Below are positions 9,716 through 51,084 of a DNA stretch of 64,000 nt, piece by piece; positions within the stretch are counted from its first letter, which is position 1; each line of letters opens with the position of its first letter. The DNA is taken from NCBI RefSeq assembly GCF_001646665.1, contig NZ_LWBU01000395.1, forward strand, positions 1 through 64,000. The letters run 5' to 3'. The notes beneath the pieces are model-generated. The model did no database searches. It saw only the letters and a list, made by a program, of their open reading frames with translations, and had not been told where the DNA came from. The DNA comes from Streptomyces noursei. GTDB lineage: Bacteria > Actinomycetota > Actinomycetes > Streptomycetales > Streptomycetaceae. A program made the translations under genes and the position numbers.

Positions 9716-10738
9716 ATGGACCTTGCCTACATTCCCAGCCCGTCTACCGGTGTGATCCATCTCGGACCGGTACCGCTGCGCGGCTATGCCTTCTGCATCA
9801 TCATCGGTGTCTTCGTCGCCGTCTGGTACGGCAACAGGCGCTGGCTCGCCCGGGGCGGCAAAGCCGGCACCGTGGCCGACATCGCCGTGTGGGCCGTGCC
9901 CTTCGGTCTCGTCGGCGGCCGGCTCTACCACGTCATCACCGACTACCAGCTGTACTTCAGCGAGGGTGAGAACTGGGTCGACGCCTTCAAGATCTGGGAG
10001 GGCGGCCTCGGCATCTGGGGCGCCATCGCGCTCGGTGCCGTGGGCGCCTGGATCGGCTGCCGCCGCCGCGGCATCCCGCTGCCGGCGTACGCGGACGCCA
10101 TCGCGCCCGGCATCGCCCTCGCCCAGGCGATCGGGCGCTGGGGCAACTGGTTCAACCAGGAGCTGTACGGCCGGCCCACCGACCTGCCGTGGGCGCTGAA
10201 GATCAGCGAGGGCCCGAACCGCGAGGCCGGGCTCTACCATCCGACCTTCCTGTACGAGTCGCTGTGGTGCGTCGGCGTCGCGCTGCTGGTCGTCTGGGCG
10301 GACCGCCGCTTCCGGCTGGGCCACGGCCGGGCGTTCGCCCTGTACGTCGCCGCCTACTGCGCCGGGCGCGGGTGGATCGAGTACATGCGCGTCGACGAGG
10401 CGCACCACGTCCTGGGCCTGCGGCTGAACGTGTGGACCGCGATCGTGGTCTTCGTGCTGGCCGTGACGTACATCGTTCTGTCGTCGCGGCTGCGGCCGGG
10501 CCGCGAGGAGGTCGTGGAGCCGGGGGCGCTCGCGGACCTGGCGAAGGCCGACGCCGCGAAGGCGGAAGGTGCCGCGAAGACGGCCGACGCCGCGAAGACG
10601 GACGGTACGGCGAAGGCCGGCGCCGCCGCGGCCGACGCCGTGACGACCGACGCGGCGGAGGCGGACCCCGGGACGCCGGCCGGCCCGGCGGGGCGGAAGG
10701 GGACCGGCGCGAAGCCGGAGTCGGCCGAGAAGGGCTGA
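9716..10738 (+). CDS. lgt: Prolipoprotein diacylglyceryl transferase
   Basis: A 340-residue integral membrane enzyme that transfers diacylglycerol from phosphatidylglycerol to the lipobox cysteine of prolipoproteins. The Lgt signature is clear: 'AIAPGIALAQAIGRWGNWFNQE', with the essential-Arg region 'GRWGNWFNQELYG', and the N-terminal 'GPVPLRGYAFCIIIGV'. About seven membrane segments can be traced up to residue 260. The last roughly 80 residues are an unusual Ala/Lys/Asp repeat tail ('AKADAAKAEGAAKTADAAKT'), presumably cytoplasmic and disordered, as in several Streptomyces Lgt proteins. A strong hairpin follows the gene. Confidence 0.96.
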   Translation: MDLAYIPSPSTGVIHLGPVPLRGYAFCIIIGVFVAVWYGNRRWLARGGKAGTVADIAVWAVPFGLVGGRLYHVITDYQLYFSEGENWVDAFKIWEGGLGIWGAIALGAVGAWIGCRRRGIPLPAYADAIAPGIALAQAIGRWGNWFNQELYGRPTDLPWALKISEGPNREAGLYHPTFLYESLWCVGVALLVVWADRRFRLGHGRAFALYVAAYCAGRGWIEYMRVDEAHHVLGLRLNVWTAIVVFVLAVTYIVLSSRLRPGREEVVEPGALADLAKADAAKAEGAAKTADAAKTDGTAKAGAAAADAVTTDAAEADPGTPAGPAGRKGTGAKPESAEKG

Positions 10739-10795: not shown

Positions 10796-11629
10796 TCATG
10801 CGCGGTGCGCCCTGGCCAGGGACAGGGTGCGGTGGGCGGCGGCGGCGACCGCCGCGTCGACGAAGCGGCCGTCGGGCAGGGCGAGGGCGCCCGCGTCGGC
10901 GGCGCCCGCCTTGACGATCTCCTCCGCCGCCGCGACCTCCTCGGCGGTCGGCAGGTAGGCCCGCTCGATGACCGGCAGCTGCCGGGGGTGGATCGCCGCA
11001 CGCCCCAGGAAGCCGAGCGCCCGGCCGTGGGCGCAGGACGCGGCGAGGCCGTCGAGGTCGCCGATGTCGGGGTGGACGGACTGGGCGGGCGGTGGCAGGT
11101 TTGCCGCCCGGGCGGCGACCACGACGCGGCTGCGCGGCCAGTCGAGGCCCCGGTCGTCGCGTACGCCCAGGTCGGCGCGGAGGTCCGCCTCGCCGAGGGC
11201 GATGCCGCGGACGGCCGGGTGGGCGGTGGCGATGGCGTGGGCGTGCTCGATCGCCAGGGCGGATTCGAGCAGGGCGTGCAGCGGGACGCCGGGGGCGAGG
11301 TCCGCGATCCGCCGGATGTCAGTGCCGTGTGTCACCTTGGGAACACGCAGTGCGGCGAGGCCGGGCAGGGGGGCCAGCGCCGTGATGGCCGTGGTGTCGT
11401 GTGCGCTGGGGAGGCGGACGTGGACCGGTACGGGGTGGGGCGAGGAGAGCAGGTCGGCCGTGGCGGCGAGGGCGTAGCCCCTGCGGTCCGCGGGGACCGC
11501 GTCCTCCAGGTCGACGATCACGACGTCGGCGCCCGAGGCGAGGGCCTTGCCGACGACCTCCGGCCGGTCGCCGGGGGCGTACAACCAGGTCAGTGGCCAC
11601 GTCTCGGGGGCGGAGGCCGGGCCGCTCAC
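10796..11629 (-). CDS. HpcH/HpaI aldolase / citrate-lyase beta-like protein (CoA-ester lyase)
   Basis: A 277-residue TIM-barrel protein of the CitE/malyl-CoA lyase family. Visible motifs are 'TWLYAPGDRPEVVGKALASG', 'ADVVIVDLEDAVPADRR' (metal-binding Glu/Asp), 'VHVRLPSAHD', 'LHALLESALAI', 'GIALGEADLRADLG' (metal Glu and Asp) and 'GRAAIHPRQLPVIERAY'. Family members cleave or form C-C bonds in CoA thioesters such as citramalyl-CoA or malyl-CoA. The start is GTG at 11629, which overlaps the CoA-transferase stop by four bases (GTGA). It is last in the seven-gene minus-strand operon 10796-19014. A CoA-transferase directly upstream fits a pathway in which an organic acid is activated to a CoA ester and then cleaved; the substrate is not evident. 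Confidence 0.87.
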   Translation of the reverse strand: MSGPASAPETWPLTWLYAPGDRPEVVGKALASGADVVIVDLEDAVPADRRGYALAATADLLSSPHPVPVHVRLPSAHDTTAITALAPLPGLAALRVPKVTHGTDIRRIADLAPGVPLHALLESALAIEHAHAIATAHPAVRGIALGEADLRADLGVRDDRGLDWPRSRVVVAARAANLPPPAQSVHPDIGDLDGLAASCAHGRALGFLGRAAIHPRQLPVIERAYLPTAEEVAAAEEIVKAGAADAGALALPDGRFVDAAVAAAAHRTLSLARAHRA

Positions 11630-12837
11630 AGCGCGCCCTCGGAGCGGAGGCGGGCGATCTCGGACTCGGTCAGGCCGAGGTCGGTGAGGACGGCGTCGGT
11701 GTCGGCGCCGTGGGGCCGGCCGGTCCAGCGGATAGAGCCGGGGGTCTCGGAGAGGCGGAAGAGGACGTTCTGCATACGGACCGGGCCGAGATCGGGGTCG
11801 GCGACCTCGGTGACCGTGTCGAGCGCCTGGTACTGGGGGTCGGCCAGCACGTCGCGGACGTCGTAGATCGGGGCGATCGCCGCCTCTGCCTTCTCGAACG
11901 CGGCCATGGCCTCGTCGCGGGTGTGCCGGGCGATCCAGCTGCCGACCGCCTCGTCGAGGACGTCCGCGTGCTGGGCGCGGGTGGTGCCCTCGGCGAACCA
12001 GGGCTCGGCGATCAGTTCGGGCCGGCCGACCAGGCGCATCACGCGCTCCGCGACGGACTGGGCGGAGGTGGAGACGGCGAGCCAGGAGCCGTCGGCGGTG
12101 CGGTAGGTGTTGCGGGGGGCGTTGTTCCGGGAGCGGTTGCCGGTCCGGGGCTGGACGTAGCCGAGCTGGTCGTACCAGAGGGGCTGGGGGCCGAGGACCA
12201 TGAGGATCGGTTCGATGATCGCCATGTCGACGACCTGGCCGTGGCCGGTGGTGGCGCGGGCCTGGAGGGCGGTCATCACGGCGTACGCGGTGGCCAGGGC
12301 CGCGATGGAGTCGGCGAGGCCGAAGGGCGGGAGCGTCGGCGGGCCGTCGGGTTCGCCGGTGATCGCGGCGAAGCCGCTCATGGCCTCGGCGAGCGTGCCG
12401 AAGCCGGGACGGCGGGCGTACGGGCCGTACTGCCCGAAGCCGGTGACCCGGGCCAGCACCAGCCGCTCGTTGGCGGCGGAGAGTTCGGGCCAGCCGAGGC
12501 CCCACTTCTCCAGGGTCCCGGGGCGGAAGTTCTCGACGACCACGTCGGCGGTGGCGGCGAGGCGGAGCAGGGTGGCCCGGCCGCCGGGGGTGGACAGGTC
12601 GAGGGTGATGGTGCGCTTGTTGCGGCCGAGGAGCTTCCACCAGAGCCCGACGCCGTTCTTGGCGGGACCGTGGCCCCGGGACGGGTCGGGTCTGCGGGGG
12701 TGCTCGACCTTGATGACGTCGGCACCGAAGTCGCCGAGCATGGTCGCCGCCAGCGGGCCGGCGAAGAGGGTGGCGAGGTCGAGGACCCGCAGCCCCTGGA
12801 GCGGGGGCGCGGCCGGGGAGGAGGTGGTGGTGGTCAT
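11626..12837 (-). CDS. CaiB/BaiF family III CoA-transferase
   Basis: A 403-residue protein. The N-terminus is typical of the family: 'LQGLRVLDLATLFAGPLAATMLGDFGADVIKVEHP' followed by 'GRNKRTITLDLSTPGG'. The catalytic aspartate lies in the conserved 'GFGTLAEAMSGFAAITGEPDGPP' and 'GLADSIAALATAYAVMTAL' region (Asp of 'LADSIA'). The C-terminal small domain ends in 'ADTDAVLTDLGLTESEIARLR', a usual closing motif. Such enzymes move CoA between carboxylic acids. The ATG at 12837 overlaps the ribokinase-like stop (ATGA), so the genes are coupled; the partner lyase follows with a four-base overlap. Confidence 0.92.
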   Translation of the reverse strand: MTTTTSSPAAPPLQGLRVLDLATLFAGPLAATMLGDFGADVIKVEHPRRPDPSRGHGPAKNGVGLWWKLLGRNKRTITLDLSTPGGRATLLRLAATADVVVENFRPGTLEKWGLGWPELSAANERLVLARVTGFGQYGPYARRPGFGTLAEAMSGFAAITGEPDGPPTLPPFGLADSIAALATAYAVMTALQARATTGHGQVVDMAIIEPILMVLGPQPLWYDQLGYVQPRTGNRSRNNAPRNTYRTADGSWLAVSTSAQSVAERVMRLVGRPELIAEPWFAEGTTRAQHADVLDEAVGSWIARHTRDEAMAAFEKAEAAIAPIYDVRDVLADPQYQALDTVTEVADPDLGPVRMQNVLFRLSETPGSIRWTGRPHGADTDAVLTDLGLTESEIARLRSEGAL

Positions 12838-13718
12838 GCGGTGTCGATCTCCGTGCGGTACGGCATCGAGGACGAGGCGCCGGGACGCTGGACGGACAGG
12901 GCGGCGGCGGACGAGGCCCAGGCGAGGGCGTCGGGGACGGGGGTCCCCTCGCCGAGCGCGACGGCCAGGGCGCCGACGAAGGTGTCGCCCGCCGCGGTGG
13001 TGTCGACGGCCCGGACCCGGGGGGCGGGGACGGTGACCGGGTCGGCGCCGCGGGCCGCGTACAGGCTGCCGGCGGCGCCGAGGGTGATGACGACCTCCGG
13101 GACGTGGCGGAGCAGCGCCTCGGCGGCCGCGTGCGGGTCGGCGTGGCCGGTGAGGGTCGCCGCCTCGTGCTCGTTGGGCACCAGCAGGTCGGTGGCGGCG
13201 AGCAGTTCGGGGGGCAGCGGCTGGGCGGGGGCGGGGGTGAGGATCGTGCGGACGCCGTGGCGGCGGGCGGCCTCGGCGCCGGCGACGACGGCGGAGAGGG
13301 GGAGTTCCAGTTGGAGGAGCAGGGCGGTGCCGGTGGCGATGAGGGTCTCGTCGCCGGGGGCCAGCGAGGTGACGGTGCCGTTGGCGCCGGGGACGACGAC
13401 GATGGCGTTGCTGCCCTCGTCGTCGACGACGATGTGGGCGGTGCCGGAGGGGCCGTCGACGGTGCGGAGCAGGTCGGTGTCGACACCGGCGCCGGTGAGC
13501 CCGGCCCGCAGCCGGGTGCCGAACTCGTCGGAGCCGACGGCGCCGATCATCGACACCTCCGCCCCGGCGCGGGCGGCGGCGACCGCCTGGTTGGCGCCCT
13601 TGCCGCCGGGGACCGTGCGGAACTCGCGTCCCGTGACGGTCTCGCCGAGCTTGGGGGCGCGGCTCACATAGGCGACGAGGTCCATGTTGGTGCTGCCGAG
13701 CACCACGATGTGGGTCAT
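12834..13718 (-). CDS. Ribokinase / PfkB-family carbohydrate kinase
   Basis: A 294-residue kinase with the N-terminal 'VVLGSTNMDLVAYVSRAPKLGETVTG' (GSxNxD sugar-binding), the PfkB signature 1 'GGKGANQAVAAARAGAEVSMIGAVG', and signature 2 with the catalytic base in 'VDTTAAGDTFVGALAVAL' (D of AAGD). 'LVPNEHEAATLTG' is the ribokinase-type NExE region. It fits ribokinase better than fructokinase or adenosine kinase. In this operon it follows four ADP-ribosylglycohydrolase paralogues, so a role in phosphorylating the (deoxy)ribose or riboside released by them is plausible but not shown. The ATG at 13718 overlaps the upstream stop (ATGA). Confidence 0.9.
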   Translation of the reverse strand: MTHIVVLGSTNMDLVAYVSRAPKLGETVTGREFRTVPGGKGANQAVAAARAGAEVSMIGAVGSDEFGTRLRAGLTGAGVDTDLLRTVDGPSGTAHIVVDDEGSNAIVVVPGANGTVTSLAPGDETLIATGTALLLQLELPLSAVVAGAEAARRHGVRTILTPAPAQPLPPELLAATDLLVPNEHEAATLTGHADPHAAAEALLRHVPEVVITLGAAGSLYAARGADPVTVPAPRVRAVDTTAAGDTFVGALAVALGEGTPVPDALAWASSAAALSVQRPGASSSMPYRTEIDTA

Positions 13719-15244
13719 GTGCGGTGTGCCTCCTGGCGGGTGAGCCGGTGGGTGAGGGTGGCGAGGGTGTCGAATCCGGTGCCGTCGAACGGGGGGACGG
13801 AGGTGGCGAGGCGGTTCTTGAGGGGAGCGGTCCAGCGGTCGGGGATCCTTTCGGGCCGGCCGGCCAGGAGACCGGCGACGGAGCCTGCGGTGGCACCGTT
13901 GGAGTCGGTGTCCCACCCCCCGGAGACGGCACGGCAGACGGAGAGGCTGAAGTCGCCGTCGGCGTGGGTGAGCGCGGCGGCGAGGAGGGCGGCGTTCGGC
14001 ACGACGTGTACCCAGTGGTAGGAGCCGTAGGCGGTGTGGAGCCGGTCGGCGACGGTGTCGAAGTCGGGGTGCGCGCGGGCCGTCGCGATGCCGAAGCGGA
14101 CCGCGCGGGACAGCCGTGAGTCGGGTGGGACGACCGTCAGCCCGGTGGCGAGCGCCCGGTGGACGTCGGCGGTGCCGGAGGCGGCGGTGGCGATGACGGC
14201 CGCGGTGAACATGGCGCCGTACACGCCGTTGGCGGTGTGGGTCAGGGTGGCGTCCCGGTGCGCCTGTTCGGCGGCGGCGGCCGGGTCGCCCGGGTGGGTC
14301 CAGCCGTGGACGTCCGCGCGGATCTGGGCGCCGATCCACTCGCGGAACGGGTTGCGGTGGCTGGCGGTGAACGGCGGTTCCAGGCCGCACAGGAGGTTGC
14401 GGTAGGCGACGCGCTCGGCTGTGAAGGTGCGGCCGGCCGGAAGTTCGTCCAGCCAGAGGCGGCCGACGTCGGCGGTGCGGAAGCCGGGGCCGTACCGCTG
14501 GAGGAGCAGGAGATTGAGGAGGGGGTAGTTGAGGTCGTCGTCCTCCGGCATGCCGTCGATGTTCTCGGCGAGGGAGGTGGTGGCGGAGCGGCGGTTCCAG
14601 GGGTGGGCGGCGGCGAGCGCCGGGGGGAGGCCCTTGGCGGTGAACCACGTGGTGAGCGGCCAGTTGCCGGTGGCGCGGGCGAGGGCCCGGATGGCGGGGA
14701 GCGGAAGCTTCTCGACCGGCTTGCCGAGCAGGCACCCGGCGGCCCGCCCCAGCCAGGCGGCGTGCAGCCGCGCGGTCGCGTCGGCCGGCGGTCCGGGTTC
14801 CGGTGCGGGTGGGGCGTGGGGTGCCACCGGTGCGTCCGGTCCCGGTGGTGCTTGTGGTGCTTGTGGTGCTTGTGGTGCTGGTGGTGCGGTGGGTGCGGGT
14901 GGTGGTCCGGGCGGAGGGGATGCGGCGGACGCCGGCGCGGGGGGTGCCGCGGGGGTGGCGGGCCAGTCCCGGCAGAGGCGCCTGATGTGCGGAAGGGAGG
15001 TGGGTTCGGCCGGGGACAGGGGGACGGGCAGAGCGGCCAGTTCGTCGAGGAGGCGTTCCGCGAGGGCCCTGAGGTGCGGGGGCGCGGGGACCGCAGAGGC
15101 GCCCGCCGCCGCGGGGGCGGGGGAGCCGCCGGCCGCGCGCCAGCGGGCGGCGACGGCCGAGGCGTCCCGGCCGTCCTCGGCGGCCTGGCGCAGTTCGTGA
15201 CCGACCAGGTCCTCGGGCTGCACCCAGGTGAGACGGACGTTCAC
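13715..15244 (-). CDS. ADP-ribosylglycohydrolase-family protein, long form (paralogue D)
   Basis: A 509-residue protein. Residues 1-90 are a poorly defined helical region. Residues 90-160 are a Pro/Ala-rich linker containing a short repeat (PQAPQAPQAPPGP). The ADP-ribosylglycohydrolase (DraG/ARH) fold then begins at 'ARLHAAWLGRAAGCLLGKPV'. The first metal motif appears as 'PEDDDLNYPLL' (Thr of the usual TDDT replaced by Glu) and the second as 'SGGWDTDSNGATAGSVAGLL', intact. 'THTANGVYGAMFTAAVIATA' is the family's central motif. GTG at 15244 overlaps the upstream stop by four bases. It differs clearly from the other three paralogues in the operon and so probably has its own substrate. Confidence 0.85.
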   Translation of the reverse strand: MNVRLTWVQPEDLVGHELRQAAEDGRDASAVAARWRAAGGSPAPAAAGASAVPAPPHLRALAERLLDELAALPVPLSPAEPTSLPHIRRLCRDWPATPAAPPAPASAASPPPGPPPAPTAPPAPQAPQAPQAPPGPDAPVAPHAPPAPEPGPPADATARLHAAWLGRAAGCLLGKPVEKLPLPAIRALARATGNWPLTTWFTAKGLPPALAAAHPWNRRSATTSLAENIDGMPEDDDLNYPLLNLLLLQRYGPGFRTADVGRLWLDELPAGRTFTAERVAYRNLLCGLEPPFTASHRNPFREWIGAQIRADVHGWTHPGDPAAAAEQAHRDATLTHTANGVYGAMFTAAVIATAASGTADVHRALATGLTVVPPDSRLSRAVRFGIATARAHPDFDTVADRLHTAYGSYHWVHVVPNAALLAAALTHADGDFSLSVCRAVSGGWDTDSNGATAGSVAGLLAGRPERIPDRWTAPLKNRLATSVPPFDGTGFDTLATLTHRLTRQEAHRT

Positions 15245-16422
15245 CGGGGCACCCCGGGCACGGGGGAGAGCGCGACGAACGCCCGCTCGTGGGCCCGGCG
15301 CCGGGCCGTGTCGCGCATGAAGACCTCGTGGGCCACCTCGGCCAGCACCGCGGCCGGGGCGTGCAGGTCGAGCCGGCTGGCCTCCGCGACCTGTTTCGCC
15401 CAGACGGCGGGGACGGCCGCCTCCCCGTGCAGCGCGCCCGCGATCGCCCCCGCCATGGTGGCGATCGAGTCGCAGTCCCGGCCGTAGTTGACGGCGCCCA
15501 GCACCGTGCGGCGGTAGTCGCCCTCGCCGACCAGCAGCATCCCGAGGGCGACGGGGAGTTCTTCGACGGCGTGCAGCCGGGAGGGGCGGCGGGCGCCGAG
15601 GGACGGCGAACGGTAGTCCGGGCCGACCGTGTCGAAGGGGGCGACCGCCTCGCGCAGCGGGCGCAGGGCCGACTCGAAGTCGGTGTGTCCGGCGGCGGCT
15701 TCCGCCACCGCCTCGATCGCCGAGCGGGTGCCGTCCTTGGCCAGGCCCAGCGCCGTGCCGACGACGGAGGCCGGATCCGCGCCGGGCGCGCAGGCCGCGG
15801 CGACCGCCGCCGCGAACACTCCGGCGGCCTCACGGCCGTAGGAGGACTGGTGGGCACCGGCGATGTCGAGGGCCTCGGCGTACGCCCGCTCCGGGTTGGC
15901 CGCGTTGACCAGGCCGACGGGTGCCATGTACATCGCCGCACCGCAGTTGACGATGTTCCCGGTGCCTGCCTCGCGCGGATCGACGTGACCGTAGTGGAGC
16001 CGCGCGACCAGCCACTTCTCGGCGAGGAAGATCCGCTGGAGGGGCAGTGCCTCGGCCTCCAGCTCCGGGATCCAGCGCGGGGTGGAGATCAGGTCGGGTA
16101 CGAGGTGGTCGGCCACCGCGTAGGCGTCGAGATGGTCGCGGACGGTGTCGTAGACCCGGACCAGCGCGTGGGTCATGAGGGTGTCGTCGGTGACGTGTCC
16201 GTCGCCCTTGTGGTACGGGGCGATGGGGCGGGCGGTGCGCCACGCGTCGCCGTTCCAGGGGCCGACGATGCCGGTGACGCGGCCTCCGTGGCGCTCGGCG
16301 ATCCGGTCGGGGCTGTAGCCCTCGACCGCCCCGCCGAGCGCGTCACCGACGGCTGCTCCGACGAGGCTGCCGGTGATCCTGTCCTCGAGTGTGGGTTTCG
16401 GCGTCATGTCGGAATTGTCCAC
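15241..16422 (-). CDS. ADP-ribosylglycohydrolase-family protein (paralogue C)
   Basis: A 393-residue protein with a full set of ARH motifs: 'DRITGSLVGAAVGDALGG' at the N-terminus, 'GDGHVTDDTLMTHALV' (intact TDDT metal ligands), and 'NYGRDCDSIATMAGAIAGAL' (D-x-D-S). It has the long insertion with 'TPRWIPELEAEALPLQ'. The start is ATG 16422 or, more cautiously, ATG 16407 (MTPKPTLED). Either way the gene overlaps the upstream gene's 3' end by 65-80 nt in another frame, which is unusually long. It likely hydrolyses an N- or O-glycosidic bond to ADP-ribose or to a related riboside; the substrate is unknown. Confidence 0.9.
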   Translation of the reverse strand: MDNSDMTPKPTLEDRITGSLVGAAVGDALGGAVEGYSPDRIAERHGGRVTGIVGPWNGDAWRTARPIAPYHKGDGHVTDDTLMTHALVRVYDTVRDHLDAYAVADHLVPDLISTPRWIPELEAEALPLQRIFLAEKWLVARLHYGHVDPREAGTGNIVNCGAAMYMAPVGLVNAANPERAYAEALDIAGAHQSSYGREAAGVFAAAVAAACAPGADPASVVGTALGLAKDGTRSAIEAVAEAAAGHTDFESALRPLREAVAPFDTVGPDYRSPSLGARRPSRLHAVEELPVALGMLLVGEGDYRRTVLGAVNYGRDCDSIATMAGAIAGALHGEAAVPAVWAKQVAEASRLDLHAPAAVLAEVAHEVFMRDTARRRAHERAFVALSPVPGVPR

Positions 16423-17977
16423 CCGGGGTGGCGAGTTCCGTGTGTGCGAGCTGCCCGGCGAGTTCCACCAGGTCCGTGCCCCTGAGCCGGGGCAGGGCGC
16501 AGCCCGCGAGCGTGCGGCAGGCGTCGCGCCAGGTCGCGGGCACCGCGTCGCCGCCGCTGAGCGCTCCGGTCAGGGCGCCCGCGAGGGCCGGCGCGGAGTC
16601 GGCGACCCGGGACAGGCAGGCGGCCGCCGGCACCGCCGCGGTGACCTCGCCGCGGGCCGCGGTGGTCAGGGCGAGGGCGACCGGGACGGTCTCGGCGGCG
16701 GCGATCCCGTAGCTGTAGACGTGGTCGACGATCTGGTGCTCCAGCAGCGGGACGAGCGCGAAGGCGCCGTCGGCGGTGCGGGCGAGCCCGGTGGCGTGCC
16801 GGGCGTTGCGGCCGATCTCGGTGGCGGGCGGCAGCTGGGCGAGGGCGGCGTCCACGGCGTCGTCGGCCGTCGCCCCGCCGAGCGCCGCGGCGACGGCGGC
16901 GGCCATGGCGCGGGCGCCGTGCACGCCGTCGCCGTCCTGGGTGTAGCGGGCGTCGAACTCGGCCAGTTCGGCGGCGGCGCGGGGGTCCCCCGGGTGGGCG
17001 ACCGCCAGGACGGCGGCGCGCACGCAGGCCGCGTCGTCGAAGTAGTGCGGGTTGTCGTGGCCGGTCGCGGGCGGGCGCAGACCGGTGGCGAGGTTGCCGA
17101 GGCCGGCGCGTACGGAGATGCGGGCACGCAGGGGCAGGACGGCCGACTCGACCTCGGGCGCGCGGTCGGACGCCGCGGCGATCTCGGCGGCCAGGGAGTT
17201 CCAGGCGAGGTCGACCGCCGCGCACAGGCGGCGGGCGGGCGGCAGGGAGCGGAACAGCTCCCCGGCCGCGGTGAGCAGGGTCTCGGCGGTGAACACCGCC
17301 CACTCGGCGTCGTCGGAGGGGCCGAGGCGCAGCGGCTCGGGCGGCTGGTTGAGGGCGATCGGGACGGGGAGGGTGGTGGTGGCGTTCTGCTCGGCGAAGG
17401 TGTCGAGTTCCCGGGTGAGGCGCCGGGTCCACTCGGGCATGCGGGCGGCGCGGTGCCGGGCGGCGGGCCACCCCGCGGCGTCCCCGGAGGCGAGGCCGAG
17501 CAGGAGGCCCTCGATGCGGCGGGGTGCGGACGCCGGGGTGGTGCGGGCCGTGCCCCTCGTGCCGGCGGGGCCGGTACGCCGTCCCTTGCGGGCGGGGAGG
17601 CCGCGGTCCTCGGCGGCGGGCGCGGCGCCCGGGGCGGCGGTGACGGGTGCGGTTGCCGGGGCGGGCGTGAGGCGGGGGGAGGGGGCGGGGGCGGTGCGCG
17701 GAGCGGTGGCGGCGGATGACGCGGGGTCCGGGGCGGGGTCCGGGGCGGTGGCCGGGGCGGGGCCCGGGGCGGCGGCGTGCTGCGCGGGCGGGCGGCCGGA
17801 GCCCCGCGTGCCGTCGCCGGCGGGGCCGTCCACCGGGCCGGGCGGGGCGGTGGCGCGGGCGGTACGACCGCTCCCGGCCGGGTGCGTCCCTCCCGGCGGG
17901 GGCGGGCCCTCCCGTCCGTGCGGTGCCTCGTCGGCGGGGGCTCCGGTCGGCGGGGCTTGCGGGGGCGTGGGCGGCAT
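16343..17977 (-). CDS. ADP-ribosylglycohydrolase-family protein with disordered N-terminus (paralogue B)
   Basis: A 544-residue protein. The first roughly 160 residues are Pro/Ala/Thr-rich low complexity with many short PAPATAP-like runs. The ARH fold starts at 'RRIEGLLLGLASGDAAGWPA'. The first metal motif is present as 'GPSDDAEWAVFTAETLL' (SDD). The second is decayed to 'SRVADSAPALAGALTGAL', where the family has G-x-D-x-D-(T/S): one Asp is replaced by Val. Metal binding and catalysis may therefore be weakened or lost. 'TQDGDGVHGARAMAAAVAAALG' is the central motif. The ATG at 17977 overlaps the upstream stop by one base (TGATG). Confidence 0.83.
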   Translation of the reverse strand: MPPTPPQAPPTGAPADEAPHGREGPPPPGGTHPAGSGRTARATAPPGPVDGPAGDGTRGSGRPPAQHAAAPGPAPATAPDPAPDPASSAATAPRTAPAPSPRLTPAPATAPVTAAPGAAPAAEDRGLPARKGRRTGPAGTRGTARTTPASAPRRIEGLLLGLASGDAAGWPAARHRAARMPEWTRRLTRELDTFAEQNATTTLPVPIALNQPPEPLRLGPSDDAEWAVFTAETLLTAAGELFRSLPPARRLCAAVDLAWNSLAAEIAAASDRAPEVESAVLPLRARISVRAGLGNLATGLRPPATGHDNPHYFDDAACVRAAVLAVAHPGDPRAAAELAEFDARYTQDGDGVHGARAMAAAVAAALGGATADDAVDAALAQLPPATEIGRNARHATGLARTADGAFALVPLLEHQIVDHVYSYGIAAAETVPVALALTTAARGEVTAAVPAAACLSRVADSAPALAGALTGALSGGDAVPATWRDACRTLAGCALPRLRGTDLVELAGQLAHTELATPGGQFRHDAETHTRGQDHRQPRRSSRR

Positions 17978-19014
17978 CAGGGGGCCTCCGTCTCGTCGTA
18001 CGGGGTGAGCAGCTCCGCGACGTCCAGCACGTGGTAGCCGCGCATCGAGGGCAGGCAGCTGCCGCGTACGGGGCCGATGGCGGCCGCCCAGTCCGCGGGG
18101 ATCGCCGTGGCGCCGGACATCGCGCCGGCCAGGGCGCCCGCCACGGCGGCGGTGGTGTCGGCGTCCCGCCCCATGTTGACCGCCGTCAGGACCGAGGTGA
18201 CGAAGTCGCCGCGGGCCGCCGCGAACGCGCCGAACGCCAGCCCCACGGCCTCCGGCGCCAGGTCCGTCCAGGGGTAGCCGCCGATGACCACGGCCGAACG
18301 GACCGCCCGCTCCCGCGCCAGCGGGTCGGGCTGGACGCGCTGCGCCGCCACCACCGCGCGGCGCATGGAGCGGGCCGTCCAGGAGTCCATCGGCACCACC
18401 GACAGCGCGGCCGCGATCACCGAGGCGGGTCCGGCGCCCGACATGGCCGCCGCCACGCCCGCCGCGACGGCCTGGCCCCCGTAGATGCCCTCGCCCTCGT
18501 GGCTGACCGTGCCGTCGATCGCGACCAGCCGCGCCGCCTCCGCCGGGCGGCCCGCCGCGAAGACGCCGAAGGGCGCCGCCCGCATGGCCAGCCCGTCGCT
18601 CCAGGCGTGCCGGTGCTGGGCCGAGATGGGGGCGGCCAGTCCGCGCCGGAGGTTCTCCAGCGTGCCGCGCTCGCTGAACCCGGCGCCGCGGAACGGGCCC
18701 TCGTCGAGGTCGGCGATCCACCGGTGCCAGGCCTTCTCGACCTGCGGGACGGTCAGCGCCGACCCGTGCCGGGCGAGCAGCAGCCCCGAGAAGATCGCGT
18801 ACTCGGTGTCGTCCGTGCCTGCCGGGTCCTCGCTGACGAAGCCCTCGATGCGGCCCCAGCGGCGGCGGATCTCCGAGGGCCGCATGTTCTCGGCCGGGGC
18901 CCCGAGCGCGTCACCGACGGCCAGCCCCAGCAGCGCCCCCCGCGCGCGGTCGAGCACTGTCGCCGCGTCGGCGCGAGCAGCGGGATCGCGGACGATCGGC
19001 TCCGTCGGCTCCAT
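17977..19014 (-). CDS. ADP-ribosylglycohydrolase-family protein (paralogue A, first gene of operon)
   Basis: A 345-residue protein with canonical ARH features: 'DRARGALLGLAVGDALGAPA', 'DPAGTDDTEYAIFSGLLLA' (TDDT metal ligands), 'SHEGEGIYGGQAVAAGVAAA', and 'NMGRDADTTAAVAGALAGAM' (DADT). The fold removes ADP-ribose or similar groups from proteins or small molecules. The ATG at 19014 is preceded by GGAAGGGCC. As the first gene of the seven-gene minus-strand operon its promoter must lie in 19015-19150. All seven genes overlap or abut, implying co-ordinate translation. Confidence 0.9.
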   Translation of the reverse strand: MEPTEPIVRDPAARADAATVLDRARGALLGLAVGDALGAPAENMRPSEIRRRWGRIEGFVSEDPAGTDDTEYAIFSGLLLARHGSALTVPQVEKAWHRWIADLDEGPFRGAGFSERGTLENLRRGLAAPISAQHRHAWSDGLAMRAAPFGVFAAGRPAEAARLVAIDGTVSHEGEGIYGGQAVAAGVAAAMSGAGPASVIAAALSVVPMDSWTARSMRRAVVAAQRVQPDPLARERAVRSAVVIGGYPWTDLAPEAVGLAFGAFAAARGDFVTSVLTAVNMGRDADTTAAVAGALAGAMSGATAIPADWAAAIGPVRGSCLPSMRGYHVLDVAELLTPYDETEAP

Positions 19015-19443
19015 CGGCGTGGCCCTTCCGTGCGCACCGATCCGATTCCTGGATGTGTGCCACGCCCGGCGTGCGGGTTGTCGGTGCGCACCGCGGTGTC
19101 ACCCGCCTGCCGCAGCCGCCCGGCGCGCATGTCCGGGGGCAGCCGGGGAGTTCCGCGAGCCGCCGGTGGGCGGGCCGGGCAGCGCTCCGGGCAGCGGGCG
19201 GGGAAGCAGGCGGCGAACCGGGCTCGGGACCACCCGGACGGAGCGGCCCAGGAGCGCCGGGGGAGTCCCCGTGGAACCGGATCGCGCCCCCGGAGGACAG
19301 GCCGGGATCCGCCGGGCCGGAGCGCCGGGTAAGTAAAGCCTGCCTTGCTGGCGCGCCCCTTACATGGCGCGTATTTTCGAAGGTGTCGGGGGGAGCGGGG
19401 TCATCCGGACCCGCTGCCGACACAAGGCGACAAGGGGATAGTT
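19015..19443. other. 429-nt divergent intergenic region
   Basis: This separates the ARH operon (minus) from the VIT-like transporter (plus). No gene was found. The left part (about 19020-19110) must hold the ARH operon promoter, but I see no convincing -35/-10 pair. The right part contains the iron-box-like site at 19330-19348. Confidence 0.5.
19330..19348. promoter_or_regulatory. Degenerate DmdR/IdeR-type iron box
   Basis: TAAGTAAAGCCTGCCTTGC matches the actinobacterial iron box TWAGGTWAGSCTWACCTWA at 12 of 19 positions, with the left half and the centre (AAGCCT) best. It lies 95 nt upstream of a predicted Fe/Mn transporter start, where iron control would make sense. Confidence 0.4.
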
Positions 19444-20172
19444 GTGTCCATCATCGAGACCGGGGCGACGCTTCACGAGGCGCACCGCGACAACCACACC
19501 CACCGCGACGTGAACGGCGGCTGGCTCCGCCCCGCCGTGTTCGGCGCGATGGACGGTCTCGTCTCCAACCTCGCCCTGATGACCGGTGTGGCGGGCGGCG
19601 CGGTGTCCCAGCAGACCATCGTGATCACCGGCCTGGCGGGGCTCGCGGCCGGCGCGTTCTCCATGGCCGCCGGCGAGTACACCTCCGTGGCCTCGCAGCG
19701 CGAGCTGGTGCAGGCGGAACTGGACGTGGAGCGGCACCAGTTGCGCAAGCACCCGGTGGACGAGATGGAGGAGCTGGCGGCGCTGTACGTGGCGCGCGGC
19801 GTCGAGCCGGCGCTCGCCCGCGAGGTCGCCATGCAGCTGTCGAGGGACCCGGAGCAGGCGCTGGAGATCCACGCCCGCGAGGAGCTGGGCATCGACCCCG
19901 ACGACCTGCCCTCGCCGGCGGTCGCGGCCCTGTCGTCCTTCGGGTCGTTCGCGCTGGGCGCGCTGCTGCCCGTCCTGCCCTACCTGCTGGGCGCCACCGC
20001 CCTGTGGCCGGCGGTGCTGCTCGCGCTGCTCGGGCTGTTCGCGTGCGGCGCCCTGGTGGCGCGGGTGACCGCACGCAGCTGGTGGTACAGCGGTCTGCGC
20101 CAGCTGGCCCTCGGCGGTGCGGCGGCGGCCGTCACCTACGGGCTGGGCGCCCTGTTCGGCGCGGCCGTCTGA
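19444..20172 (+). CDS. VIT1/CCC1-family iron/manganese transporter
   Basis: A 242-residue membrane protein. The first membrane segment carries the family signature 'RPAVFGAMDGLVSNLALMTGVAGG' and the second 'GLAGLAAGAFSMAAGEYTSVASQRE', with conserved Asp, Met and Glu residues along the transport path. A cytoplasmic helical insertion (about residues 85-150, rich in Glu and Arg) is the metal-binding domain seen in VIT proteins. Three further helices complete the fold. The start is taken as GTG 19444 with AAGGGG upstream; the frame is open further 5' without a better site. It probably exports Fe2+ or Mn2+ from the cytoplasm. An iron-box-like sequence upstream supports metal control. Confidence 0.88.
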   Translation: MSIIETGATLHEAHRDNHTHRDVNGGWLRPAVFGAMDGLVSNLALMTGVAGGAVSQQTIVITGLAGLAAGAFSMAAGEYTSVASQRELVQAELDVERHQLRKHPVDEMEELAALYVARGVEPALAREVAMQLSRDPEQALEIHAREELGIDPDDLPSPAVAALSSFGSFALGALLPVLPYLLGATALWPAVLLALLGLFACGALVARVTARSWWYSGLRQLALGGAAAAVTYGLGALFGAAV

Positions 20173-20195
20173 TCCGTACCGGATCGTCGCCGCTC

Positions 20196-20224
20196 AGCCC
20201 CCTCGACAGGCGATCGAGGGGGCT
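20196..20224 (+). terminator. Terminator of the VIT-like gene
   Basis: Perfect 11-bp arms AGCCCCCTCGA / TCGAGGGGGCT with a 7-nt loop, starting 23 nt after the stop codon at 20172. Confidence 0.85.
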
Positions 20225-20644
20225 TCGCCGTACCGTTGCCGTACCGTTGAGGAACCGACGAAGGTGTTGTGACGAACGTCCAATAGCTCTATCCGCCCTC
20301 CGATGAGACACTATGCAGCGCGGCACATAAGTAGCCGTAAACCGGCGGTTTCGAAGCCCTCACCACAGGGCATGAGCCGTAGACGCTGCGGGCAACGAAG
20401 CCCGGGCACCCCCACAGGTCACTGCGTGTCGATCTCCCGACGGTCCGTCCGCCTGTCAGGCTTGTGAAACCCCGCCGCCATCAGCGGTGTCCGCATGTTG
20501 GAACGAGCTTTCCGCTTTTCGAGAAGCACTCCATCATGTAACCTGCACGAAATTTTGCGGAGGGCCAACGTCGTCCCTCTGGTACTCGCACTCCCGGACC
20601 TCCTCCGGGAGATGCCCCCAGCCACGACGACGACGGGAGAGCCG
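20225..20644 (+). promoter_or_regulatory. gltB promoter/leader region
   Basis: A 420-nt gene-free region with lower GC content than its surroundings, containing AT-rich blocks around 20280-20340 and 20490-20560. No reading frame here looks coding. It must hold the gltBD promoter(s), but I cannot assign a -35/-10 with confidence. A GlnR-like site is listed separately. Confidence 0.5.
20538..20553 (+). promoter_or_regulatory. GlnR-like binding site
   Basis: GTAAC-CTGCAC-GAAAT matches the actinobacterial GlnR box GTnAC-n6-GaAAc in both half sites (9 of 10 defined positions). It is 92 nt upstream of the gltB start, so nitrogen control of GOGAT is plausible. Confidence 0.45.
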
Positions 20645-25199
<4,555 letters not shown>

Positions 25200-25207
<8 letters not shown>

Positions 25208-49302: not shown

Positions 49303-51084
49303 TCACACCAGGCGTACGGAGGTCCCGGCGCCCTCCAGCTCCAGCACCCACACCTCGTTGGCGCCCTCCCGGAGCGCGGGCCCCGGCACGAACAGCGACT
49401 CCTGCGGCCCCACCCCCCAGAACCGGCCCAGGCAGAACCCGTTCACCCACACGAACCCCCGGGTCCACCCGGGCAGCTCCAGCGCCGCGTCCCCCGCACC
49501 GGCCAGCTCCACCACCGCCCGGTACAACCCCGGACACCCGGGCCCCGCCCCGTCCGCCACGGAGCCGCCCGCCCCCGAGTCGTCCGCCACGTCCCGGAAG
49601 GGGACCCTCGCCACCCCGTCCGCCGTGAACGCGTCCAGCCGCAACCCCCGCGCCCGCACCCCGTGCAGGTACTGCCGCTCGTGCAGCAGCCCGCCGGTGA
49701 TCCCCTTCTCCTCCGCCAGCCGCGGCCCGTAGCCCACCCGCCCCAGCGACTCCACCCACAGCTCCACCTCCGCCGGCCCCGCCACCGGCTCCGCCAGCAC
49801 CACGTGCTCCCCCTCCAGCACACCCGCCCGCACCCCGTCCACGTACACCACCGCACGGTCCCGCAACCCCGCCACCGACAGCGGATACGGCCCGCGCGGC
49901 CCGGGGACGCGGAACCGGTAGCGCACCAGCCCCCGGTCCACCCCCAGCTCCTCGAAGGACGGCGGCACCGGCCCCTCCCGCTCCTCGCCGCCCAGCACCT
50001 CCAGCACCCCCTCCAGCGGCGCCCACCGCGCGAACCGGACGACCACCCGCCCCGCCAGCCGCGGCGGCGGCGCCGGCGCCGGCGGCAGCGGGCCGTCCGC
50101 GTACCGCGCCAGCACCTCCCGGAACGCCCAGAACTTCGCCGTCGGCAGCCCCGCCTCGTCGACCGGCGCGTCGTAGTCGTACGACGTCACCGTCGCCTCC
50201 AGCGGACCGTCGTGCAGCGGACCCGACCGGTTCGCGCCCGCCCACCCGCCGAAGGACGTCCCCCCGTGCGCCATGTAGACGTTGACCGACGCCCCGCACT
50301 CCAGGACCTCCGCCAGCGCCGCCGCCGCGTCCCCCGCGTCCCGCACCGCGTGCGCCTCGCCCCAGTGGTCGAACCAGCCGCACCAGAACTCCATGCACAT
50401 CAGCGGCCCCCGCTCCCGGTGCCGCCGCAGCGCCTCGAACGCCGCCCGCGCCCCCGACCCGAAGTTCACCGTCGCCAGCACCCCCGTCACCGACCCACCC
50501 GTCAGCATGTGGTCCTCCGGCCCGTCCGACGTGCACAGCGGCACACTCACCCCGCACGCGACGAGCAGGTCCGCGACCCACCGCGGATGGTCCCGGTCCG
50601 AGCCCCAGCTCCCGTACTCGTTCTCCGCCTGCACCAGGACCACCGGGCCACCCCGGTCGACCTGCCGCGCCACCACCTGCGGCAGCAGCGTGCGGAACCA
50701 GCGCGTGACGTGCCCCAGGTACTCCGCGTCCCGCGTCCGCACCCGCCGCCCCAGCCGCCCCGTCAGCCAGTGCGGCAGCCCACCGTTCTCCCACTCCGCG
50801 CAGATGTACGGACCCGGCCGCACGATCGCCCACAGGCCCGCCTCCCGCACCGCGTCCAGGAAACGCCCCACCGCCGCCACGTCCCGGTGGCGCCCCGGCT
50901 CCGGCTCGTGCAGGTTCCACGGCACGTACGTCTCCACACAGTTCAGGCCCATCGCCCGCAGCATCGCCAGCCGGTGACCCCACTGCCCCTCGTGCACCCG
51001 GAAGTAGTGCAACGCCCCCGACAGCAACCGCACCGGCCTCCCGTCCAGCAGGAAGTCCCGGTCGCCCACCGTGAAACCGGCCAC
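49303..51084 (-). CDS. GH35 beta-galactosidase
   Basis: A 593-residue glycoside hydrolase. The TIM-barrel part shows 'DRDFLLDGRPVRLLSGALHY', 'RAMGLNCVETYVPWNLHEPE', 'AIVRPGPYICAEWENGGLPH', the acid/base Glu in 'VVLVQAENEYGSWG' and the nucleophile Glu in 'LMCMEFWCGWFDHWGE'. 'NVYMAHGGTSFGGWAG' completes the site. C-terminal jelly-roll domains end in 'GFVWVNGFCLGRFWGVGPQE'. No signal peptide is seen, so it acts inside the cell on imported beta-galactosides. GTG 51084 is preferred; GTG 51093 is possible. It is divergent from an AraC regulator 133 nt away, which likely controls it. Confidence 0.93.
   Translation of the reverse strand: MAGFTVGDRDFLLDGRPVRLLSGALHYFRVHEGQWGHRLAMLRAMGLNCVETYVPWNLHEPEPGRHRDVAAVGRFLDAVREAGLWAIVRPGPYICAEWENGGLPHWLTGRLGRRVRTRDAEYLGHVTRWFRTLLPQVVARQVDRGGPVVLVQAENEYGSWGSDRDHPRWVADLLVACGVSVPLCTSDGPEDHMLTGGSVTGVLATVNFGSGARAAFEALRRHRERGPLMCMEFWCGWFDHWGEAHAVRDAGDAAAALAEVLECGASVNVYMAHGGTSFGGWAGANRSGPLHDGPLEATVTSYDYDAPVDEAGLPTAKFWAFREVLARYADGPLPPAPAPPPRLAGRVVVRFARWAPLEGVLEVLGGEEREGPVPPSFEELGVDRGLVRYRFRVPGPRGPYPLSVAGLRDRAVVYVDGVRAGVLEGEHVVLAEPVAGPAEVELWVESLGRVGYGPRLAEEKGITGGLLHERQYLHGVRARGLRLDAFTADGVARVPFRDVADDSGAGGSVADGAGPGCPGLYRAVVELAGAGDAALELPGWTRGFVWVNGFCLGRFWGVGPQESLFVPGPALREGANEVWVLELEGAGTSVRLV

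Follow-up and report, generated by a model that had tools for sequence, protein, structure and literature searches.

Gene content and organisation of the locus

The subject of this study is a row of seven genes in Streptomyces noursei (assembly GCF_001646665.1), found at positions 10796 to 19014 on the minus strand of a 64,000-nucleotide stretch of contig NZ_LWBU01000395.1, the whole of which was analysed and is referred to here as the window. In reading order the row comprises four genes for proteins of the ADP-ribosylglycohydrolase (ARH) family, named here arhA, arhB, arhC and arhD, followed by genes for a ribokinase, a family III (CaiB/BaiF) coenzyme A (CoA)-transferase and a CitE-like (HpcH/HpaI) CoA ester lyase. 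A sequence-only reading had described seven abutting or overlapping genes, four ARHs side by side and the three further enzymes, and each of these elements was borne out. The coordinates of the open reading frames (ORFs) and the junction sequences place TGATG at the arhA/arhB junction, an overlap of approximately 65 bp between arhB and arhC, and 4 bp ATGA/GTGA overlaps at the other four junctions. All four ARHs exceed the PF03747 cut-off of 26.2 bits (ArhA 200.6, ArhB 122.5, ArhC 176.5 and ArhD 157). According to Pfam and NCBIfam, family-level names hold for all seven products (PF00294, PF02515 and PF03328 for the last three), and an equivalog cut-off was reached by the ribokinase alone. The source genome (7.64 Mb) contains eight PF03747 genes, four of them in this operon, and at the Rfam gathering threshold a tRNA was the sole match over the window.

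The set is flanked by two plus-strand genes named by NCBIfam, lgt (9716-10738) and gltB (20495-25207). We take the same two genes to lie beside SCO2028-2031 in S. coelicolor, and these four SCO genes, as a group, probably correspond to the four-ARH row.

Conservation within the genus

An ArhC profile at E 1e-40 picked out 8 genomes from a phylum-wide sample of 296, all of them of the window's genus, and at E 1e-60 ArhC was present in 88 of 121 same-genus genomes; Nonomuraea gerenzanensis, from outside the 296-genome sample, also carries ArhC. Eighty same-genus loci were compared, 20 from the PF03747 list and 60 from ArhC-positive genomes, with two genomes (G012 and G014) counted twice and nine of the 88 ArhC-positive genomes left out. 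All seven genes stand in order between gltB and lgt in 54 of the 80, and another 12 are missing just the ribokinase. Three loci (L132, L144 and L152) hold all seven genes with neither gltB nor lgt within the stretch read. At L031 and L033 arhA stands alone beside gltB, being the gene that remains when the rest of the set is gone, and elsewhere in those genomes lies arhB-arhC (L127) or a larger set (L128). The remaining nine gene patterns occur at one locus each, some at contig ends.

The CoA-transferase and lyase are found together in 74 of the 80 loci, never one without the other, and those 74 all hold ArhC. The kinase is present in 58, always accompanied by this pair. As a control, 19 kb was read at each of 20 other ARH loci outside this locus, from the same genus and order only, and a kinase, CoA-transferase, lyase or AtuA gene was found in none of them (0/20); given their origin, these controls apply to ARH genes in general and not to other phyla. 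The seven-gene row is more than chance, because 54 of the 80 loci keep all seven genes in order and the controls are devoid of the partners.

Relatives of ArhC and ArhD in other phyla

Plasmid records were searched by tblastn: 30 contained relatives of ArhD and 22 relatives of ArhC, and the surroundings of 11 and 5 of these, respectively, were viewed. One genome per species was also scanned with an ArhC alignment (first row rhizobial) and the best 80 of 557 relatives were kept, 46 from Pseudomonadota and 34 from Bacillota. Partner genes at these 80 loci were called by tblastn at 60 bits or more, and the counts that follow represent related genomes, not independent events.

In Ensifer PDNC004 and Sinorhizobium B11 the order is LacI, two permeases, a solute-binding protein (SBP), ArhC, ArhDL (a relative of ArhD of approximately 700 residues), UgpC, CoA-transferase and CoA ester lyase, with a similar order, UgpC not always included, in Devosia and others. 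Across the 46 Pseudomonadota loci we detected ArhDL in 40, SBP in 42, permease A in 40, CoA-transferase in 37, lyase in 31, ribokinase in 4 and AtuA in none. An Agrobacterium HAMBI 105 plasmid has a ribokinase where Ensifer has the CoA-transferase and lyase, and in Phyllobacterium, Pseudochrobactrum and Nitratireductor the importer and ArhC are present but neither a CoA-transferase nor a lyase was matched. With the reference proteins used, the alphaproteobacterial operons showed no ArhA or ArhB. In three Burkholderiales loci (L065, L076 and L087) LacI and a major facilitator superfamily (MFS) porter, gluP-type when tested on L065, precede ArhC and replace the ATP-binding cassette (ABC) importer.

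The Bacillota operons run AtuA-DUF4387-importer-ArhC-ArhDL-ribokinase, mostly starting with (GntR-)AtuA-DUF4387. Their 34 loci contain ArhDL (34), SBP (33), permease A (32) and ribokinase (29), and as acid modules AtuA (30), DUF4387 (30), CoA-transferase (2) and lyase (2). A ribokinase-family gene stands near ArhC or ArhD in most same-genus and Bacillota loci, on the Agrobacterium plasmid, and in Mycolicibacterium and Deinococcus, where ArhD is paired with a ribokinase and a sugar importer. The two acid modules exclude one another: over the 80 loci a CoA-transferase was found in 39 (33 with lyase and six without a detected lyase), AtuA with DUF4387 in 30, and both in none. Two Sporosarcina loci (L123 and L124) begin with GntR, lyase and CoA-transferase and continue with the same importer, ArhC and ArhDL as the AtuA-type operons. 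Three neighbour families, AtuA, DUF4387 and GntR, each recur in at least 19 of the 80 loci, the rarer neighbours being mostly unannotated.

The strongest items of evidence are that the set recurs, in differing gene order, in three phyla, and that Sporosarcina shows the slot swap. The scattering of the genes in other genomes, which the sequence-only reading had named as grounds for abandoning a joint pathway, did not occur. What the gene-neighbourhood survey returned was the same parts, rearranged and next to an importer, and a homologue of citramalate lyase where the CoA-transferase and lyase would otherwise lie.

The ARH proteins

The two Asp-rich motifs of the ARH family are metal-binding, and characterised ARH enzymes cleave ribosyl bonds. 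ArhA (17977..19014, minus strand; 345 aa) has a DraG-like ARH fold, and its TDDT and GRDADT motifs are kept in 79 of 79 aligned rows (rows covering less than 55% of the query were dropped for all motif counts). ArhC (15241..16407, minus strand; 388 aa), the ARH common to Pseudomonadota and Bacillota, and ArhD (13715..15244, minus strand; 509 aa), with an N-terminal extension, a Pro-rich linker and an ARH domain of the DDD-x-N class, have intact Asp-rich motifs in every ungapped row; both are putative ribosyl hydrolases. ArhB (16343..17977, minus strand; 544 aa) consists of an Ala/Pro-rich N-terminal stretch of approximately 150 residues and a degenerate ARH domain, in which all 77 aligned rows have SDDA for TDDT and SRVADS for GRDxDT, so that the second (D-x-D-S/T) motif is without its first Asp throughout. 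Having lost a metal-ligand Asp, ArhB is probably not catalytic and is a candidate pseudo-hydrolase, strongly conserved and with a role kept. The earlier view of the four ARHs as ribosyl removers would consequently stand for at most three of them, those that look catalytic, and probably fails for ArhB, in which the second metal motif is broken.

The window proteins share the fold of DraG, ARH1, ARH3 and Tri1, and ArhA, ArhC and ArhD share the metal-binding Asp motifs. They differ from DraG and Tri1 in falling below both equivalog cut-offs: ArhA and ArhC scored 73.5 and 51.9 on the DraG model TIGR02662 (cut-off 337.05) and 48.1 and 47.4 on the Tri1 model NF041672 (cut-off 490), and an NCBIfam search with ArhB and ArhD gave no match. 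The predicted structure of ArhC has the ARH fold (mean predicted local distance difference test score, pLDDT, 83.6), aligning with MJ1187 (Z 30.1, root-mean-square deviation (rmsd) 3.1 over 281 residues), ARH3 (Z 29.0) and DraG (Z 27.0). A further difference lies at a site that is M-Y in ArhC but M-R in ArhA and in two own-genome paralogues, which may reflect a substrate that has no ADP part; one paralogue row read in the wrong frame (L002) was disregarded in this comparison. In the ARH tree the ArhC proteins of the window, of Alphaproteobacteria and of bacilli form one clade (95/99), and a second (99/99) unites ArhD with ArhDL and the short ArhD of Mycolicibacterium, Halostella and Deinococcus; the own-genome PF03747 paralogues remain unplaced. 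In ArhDL (L015:8782-10881 and L012:9989-12091) PF03747 spans residues 14-304 only, leaving the C-terminal 400 residues unmatched in Pfam at 1e-3.

Ribokinase, CoA-transferase and lyase

The ribokinase (12834..13718, minus strand; 294 aa; PF00294, PfkB) scored 321.1 bits on TIGR02152 against a cut-off of 299.65 and 272 against 341 on the stricter model NF008353, and its Asp245 is kept in 59 of 59 rows. The CoA-transferase (11626..12837, minus strand; 403 aa) scored 410.6 bits on PF02515 and has Asp176, the conserved Asp with a known role in family III CoA-transferases, in 75 of 75 rows. It falls below the named models for succinate-glutarate (NF052585, 241 vs 750), mesaconate (NF041294, 190.2 vs 700) and formyl-CoA (220.8 vs 442). 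When the Ensifer operon CoA-transferase was compared with the source genome, the window enzyme was the best match at 329.5 bits, the next scoring 155.8, and a tree joined the Streptomyces and Sporosarcina operon enzymes (98/96), though the paralogue branches are very long and the tree carried a warning. The lyase (10796..11629, minus strand; 277 aa) scored 92.2 bits on PF03328, with Glu122 and Asp149 in 72 of 72 rows and Arg72 in 71 of 72; it scored 119.5 on RipC_Ccl (NF038242, cut-off 375) and 94.5 on citE (TIGR01588, cut-off 443.4).

A proposed pathway for a ribosylated acid

We consider it fairly probable that the operon serves the catabolism of a small glycoside in which ribose is joined to a hydroxy carboxylic acid, citramalate being the likeliest. 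The ribosyl acid would be taken up by a LacI-controlled ABC importer of the CUT1 family, which is encoded next to the operon in most relatives and in some genomes of the genus, though not in the window. ArhC and ArhD would then use their two-metal centres to hydrolyse the ribosyl bond or bonds, with some division of work between them, and ArhB is probably a non-catalytic partner. The proposed role of the ribokinase is to convert the freed ribose to ribose 5-phosphate, and that of the CoA-transferase to load CoA onto the freed acid, after which the CitE-like lyase would cleave the acyl-CoA, giving acetyl-CoA and pyruvate in the case of citramalyl-CoA. The sequence-only reading had likewise supposed that the hydrolases free ribose, that the kinase traps it and that the CoA-transferase and lyase break down the acid, and the neighbourhood survey supports this as a prediction. 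The supposed coupling of the kinase to the acid module is seen in most loci and fails in some relatives, where one or the other is missing.

The main ground for naming citramalate is that two unrelated modules, which could each cleave an acid of this type, one directly and one via a CoA ester, occupy the same slot. In the one locus tested (L089), AtuA matched the citramalate lyase subunit CmlA (PDB 9erq and 9evf) over residues 4-441 (E 1.4e-131) and DUF4387 matched CmlB over residues 3-101 (E 3e-30). The AtuA model, of middling pLDDT (72.6), superposed on 9evf with Z 43.8 and rmsd 4.8 over 431 aligned residues at 43% identity. Entry 9evf bears the title "Citramalate lyase - ADP - pyruvate complex", the enzyme name being that of the depositors. 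The acid is thus most likely citramalate, citrate or malate being less probable. Ribocitrin, a dextransucrase inhibitor of Streptomyces, is alpha-ribofuranosyl citrate and the nearest chemical precedent known to us. It resembles the proposed substrate in that ribose is attached through a hydroxyl group to an acid of the citrate type, and differs in that the acid is citrate rather than citramalate; its tie to these genes is by analogy.

Several observations weigh against this interpretation. The sugar, the acid, every reaction and the split of tasks between ArhC and ArhD are predictions, what was observed being gene content, gene order, conservation, intact motifs and the mutual exclusion with a citramalate-lyase homologue; and the controls were drawn from other taxa than the 80 Pseudomonadota and Bacillota ArhC loci. 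In 16 of the 80 same-genus loci the CoA-transferase and lyase are present with no kinase at the locus, and a ribokinase was detected in just 4 of the 46 Pseudomonadota loci. Neither acid module was found in 11 of the 80 loci outside the phylum, at least four of these being on short contigs. By tblastn the CoA-transferase and lyase are also missing from three rhizobial-type plasmid loci (L016, L042 and L043), L042 having no ArhD-type gene either, and Nonomuraea L009 consists of arhA-D and the kinase with no acid module. No equivalog cut-off is reached by the operon lyases, and citE fits them no worse than RipC_Ccl does. The Ensifer lyase ties between two proteins of the source genome, a paralogue elsewhere (54.1 bits) and the window lyase (53.0 bits), and orthology between the Ensifer and window lyases was dropped on account of this tie. 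Lastly, CUT1 importer genes are absent from the window operon, and the group of a related SBP, encoded on contig C91 of the source genome, tracks ArhC weakly over the 121 genomes, being present in 63 of the 88 that have ArhC and in 17 of the 33 that lack it (Fisher p 0.052).

Alternative explanations

The same riboside pathway could act on another acid, such as citrate (the ribocitrin aglycone), malate or another 2-hydroxy acid, which we regard as unlikely. Ribocitrin is reported from Streptomyces, its biosynthesis not being established (PMC13136089); citE outscores RipC_Ccl for the operon lyases of both Ensifer (147 vs 95) and Sporosarcina (163.5 vs 105.6); and two loci (L075 and L084) are operons of importer, ArhC and ribokinase with the acid module absent. 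On the other hand, citrate and malate enter the tricarboxylic acid cycle and call for no lyase in an aerobe, and the exchangeable AtuA/DUF4387 module is homologous to citramalate lyase.

It is less probable still, and in our judgement a distant prospect, that the locus salvages nucleosides or N-ribosides, with the ARHs as nucleosidases and the acid enzymes handling a breakdown product of an unusual base. An archaeal ArhD relative on a Halostella pelagica plasmid (L011) lies among two PF01156 nucleoside hydrolases and putative ABC-importer ORFs, a Rhizobium ACO-34A relative is located after BMP-family ABC genes, and the rhizobial LacI scores best on the RbsR and CytR models, under their cut-offs, a feature that speaks for ribose in the main reading as well. 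Against this, the recurring neighbour families named above include no base-degrading enzyme, and the Ensifer SBP resembles AlgQ-type oligosaccharide binders.

Two further explanations are very improbable. In the first, two functions would share one transcript, arhA (and perhaps arhB) being unrelated to a pathway of arhC, arhD, kinase, CoA-transferase and lyase. The solitary arhA beside gltB at L031 and L033 and the alphaproteobacterial operons without ArhA and ArhB fit this, but arhA travels with the set in L128, L132, L144 and L152, and a Clostridiales locus (L125) keeps it in the order kinase-arhDL-arhC-arhA. The second, that the ARHs reverse ADP-ribosylation of protein or nucleic acid while the kinase, CoA-transferase and lyase reuse ribose derived from ADP-ribose or are unrelated, draws on PF03747 membership, on the ARH3- and DraG-like fold of ArhC and on the printed listing of SCO2028-2031 as DraG/ARH homologues (PMC9411070), and was set aside because the conserved partners are sugar importers and acid-cleaving, catabolic enzymes. 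The sequence-only reading had left the choice between a ribosylated metabolite and an ADP-ribosylated target; the former is the part that survives, nothing having been found that points to an ADP-ribosylated macromolecule.

Relation to known systems and significance

A similar system in outline is yegTUV of E. coli, which encodes a predicted ARH together with a predicted sugar kinase and a porter of the nucleoside type (PMC10819704). It differs from the operon in having one ARH, an MFS porter and no acid module, and the paper, which names no substrate for it, links it to glycogen and ADP-glucose. The degradation of citramalate and itaconate via citramalyl-CoA (RipC/Ccl, NF038242; PMC4682846) shares with the operon a family III CoA-transferase followed by a CitE-like lyase; the window operon, in contrast, has no hydratase or mesaconase and scores far under the equivalog cut-offs. 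In 30 of the 34 Bacillota loci with ArhC the acid module consists of homologues of the citramalate lyase CmlAB, whereas the window has the CoA-transferase and CitE-like pair instead and no CmlAB gene in the operon. In the one library searched we found no description of the operon or of ribosyl-citramalate, and no papers on CmlAB.

The SCO2028-2031 proteins are called uncharacterised DraG/ARH homologues in PMC9411070 and, without SCO2031, in PMC5087735, and a 2026 paper reports SCO2028 and SCO2030 to be inactive on U-alpha-ADPr (PMC13036486). We advance tentatively, and with slightly less than even confidence, a wider proposal: the locus would represent, in Streptomyces, a pathway that spans phyla and has yet to be described, acting on ribosylated citramalate-type acids, a class of natural products to which ribocitrin would be related; the ArhC and ArhD/ArhDL branch would be dedicated small-riboside glycosidases; and up to half of the eight S. 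coelicolor DraG/ARH homologues would be catabolic, outside ADP-ribose signalling. If true, part of the ARH superfamily shifts from signalling to carbon metabolism, and a row listed as ADP-ribosyl hydrolases in a model Streptomyces is given a concrete function. On this view, some of the enzymes classed as removers of ADP-ribose would in fact serve to digest food. The proposal also predicts an unrecognised ribose conjugate, common enough for rhizobia, Devosia, Paenibacillus and streptomycetes to carry genes for its import and use.

Importer genes and upstream regions

LacI, two permeases and an SBP precede the arh genes on the same strand in 5 of the 80 same-genus loci (L128, L132, L144, L147 and L152), their Pfam families in L152 being PF00356, PF00528 (twice) and PF01547. 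At L147 lgt comes after the set, which places an importer-bearing set at the window's chromosomal position, and on two further contigs (L223 and L225) permeases and an SBP lie ahead of arhA. Site pairs near TGTAAACGTTTACA stand beside LacI in all five importer-bearing loci and were found nowhere in 380 kb of control loci. In the window there are no such pairs before arhA, and one match with three mismatches, at 50274.

Another contig of the source genome (C91) carries an SBP of 65% identity and two permeases, with no LacI or ARH in the stretch read. The weak co-occurrence of the SBP group with ArhC leads us not to claim it as an importer acting in trans. No close relative of the Ensifer permease was found in the source genome, the best having 31% identity. 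In a genome with no detected ArhC, an SBP and permeases stand alone between lgt and gltB (L224:8460-11700), which looks like a reciprocal remnant, the importer half.

A shared operator before arhA was considered and rejected: the window has two GGTGCGCAC palindromes there, one such palindrome was found in just 3 of 74 upstream stretches, and two occur in the window alone. The gap between arhA and gltB (19014-20495) is nearly 1.5 kb long and, because 9-mers such as GCCAGCAAG recur in 50 of the 74 upstream stretches, may hold a conserved control region, perhaps for gltB.

Other plasmid-borne relatives

A Deinococcus aetherius plasmid (L012) has an operon of LacI, ABC, ArhD, ribokinase and ArhDL genes, in which a 370-residue protein with no Pfam match (L012:6610-7722) is encoded between SBP and ArhD. 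On Enterobacter hormaechei pMB8072_1 (L013) LacI, a long ARH and an SBP lie amid pgm, seqA, fldA, fur, glnS and nagE/B/A, genes that are usually chromosomal, so that this is either a chromosomal block on a plasmid or a matter of assembly. A Subdoligranulum variabile plasmid (L019) contains two ArhD-type matches, a ribokinase match and further unannotated ORFs, another sibling operon.

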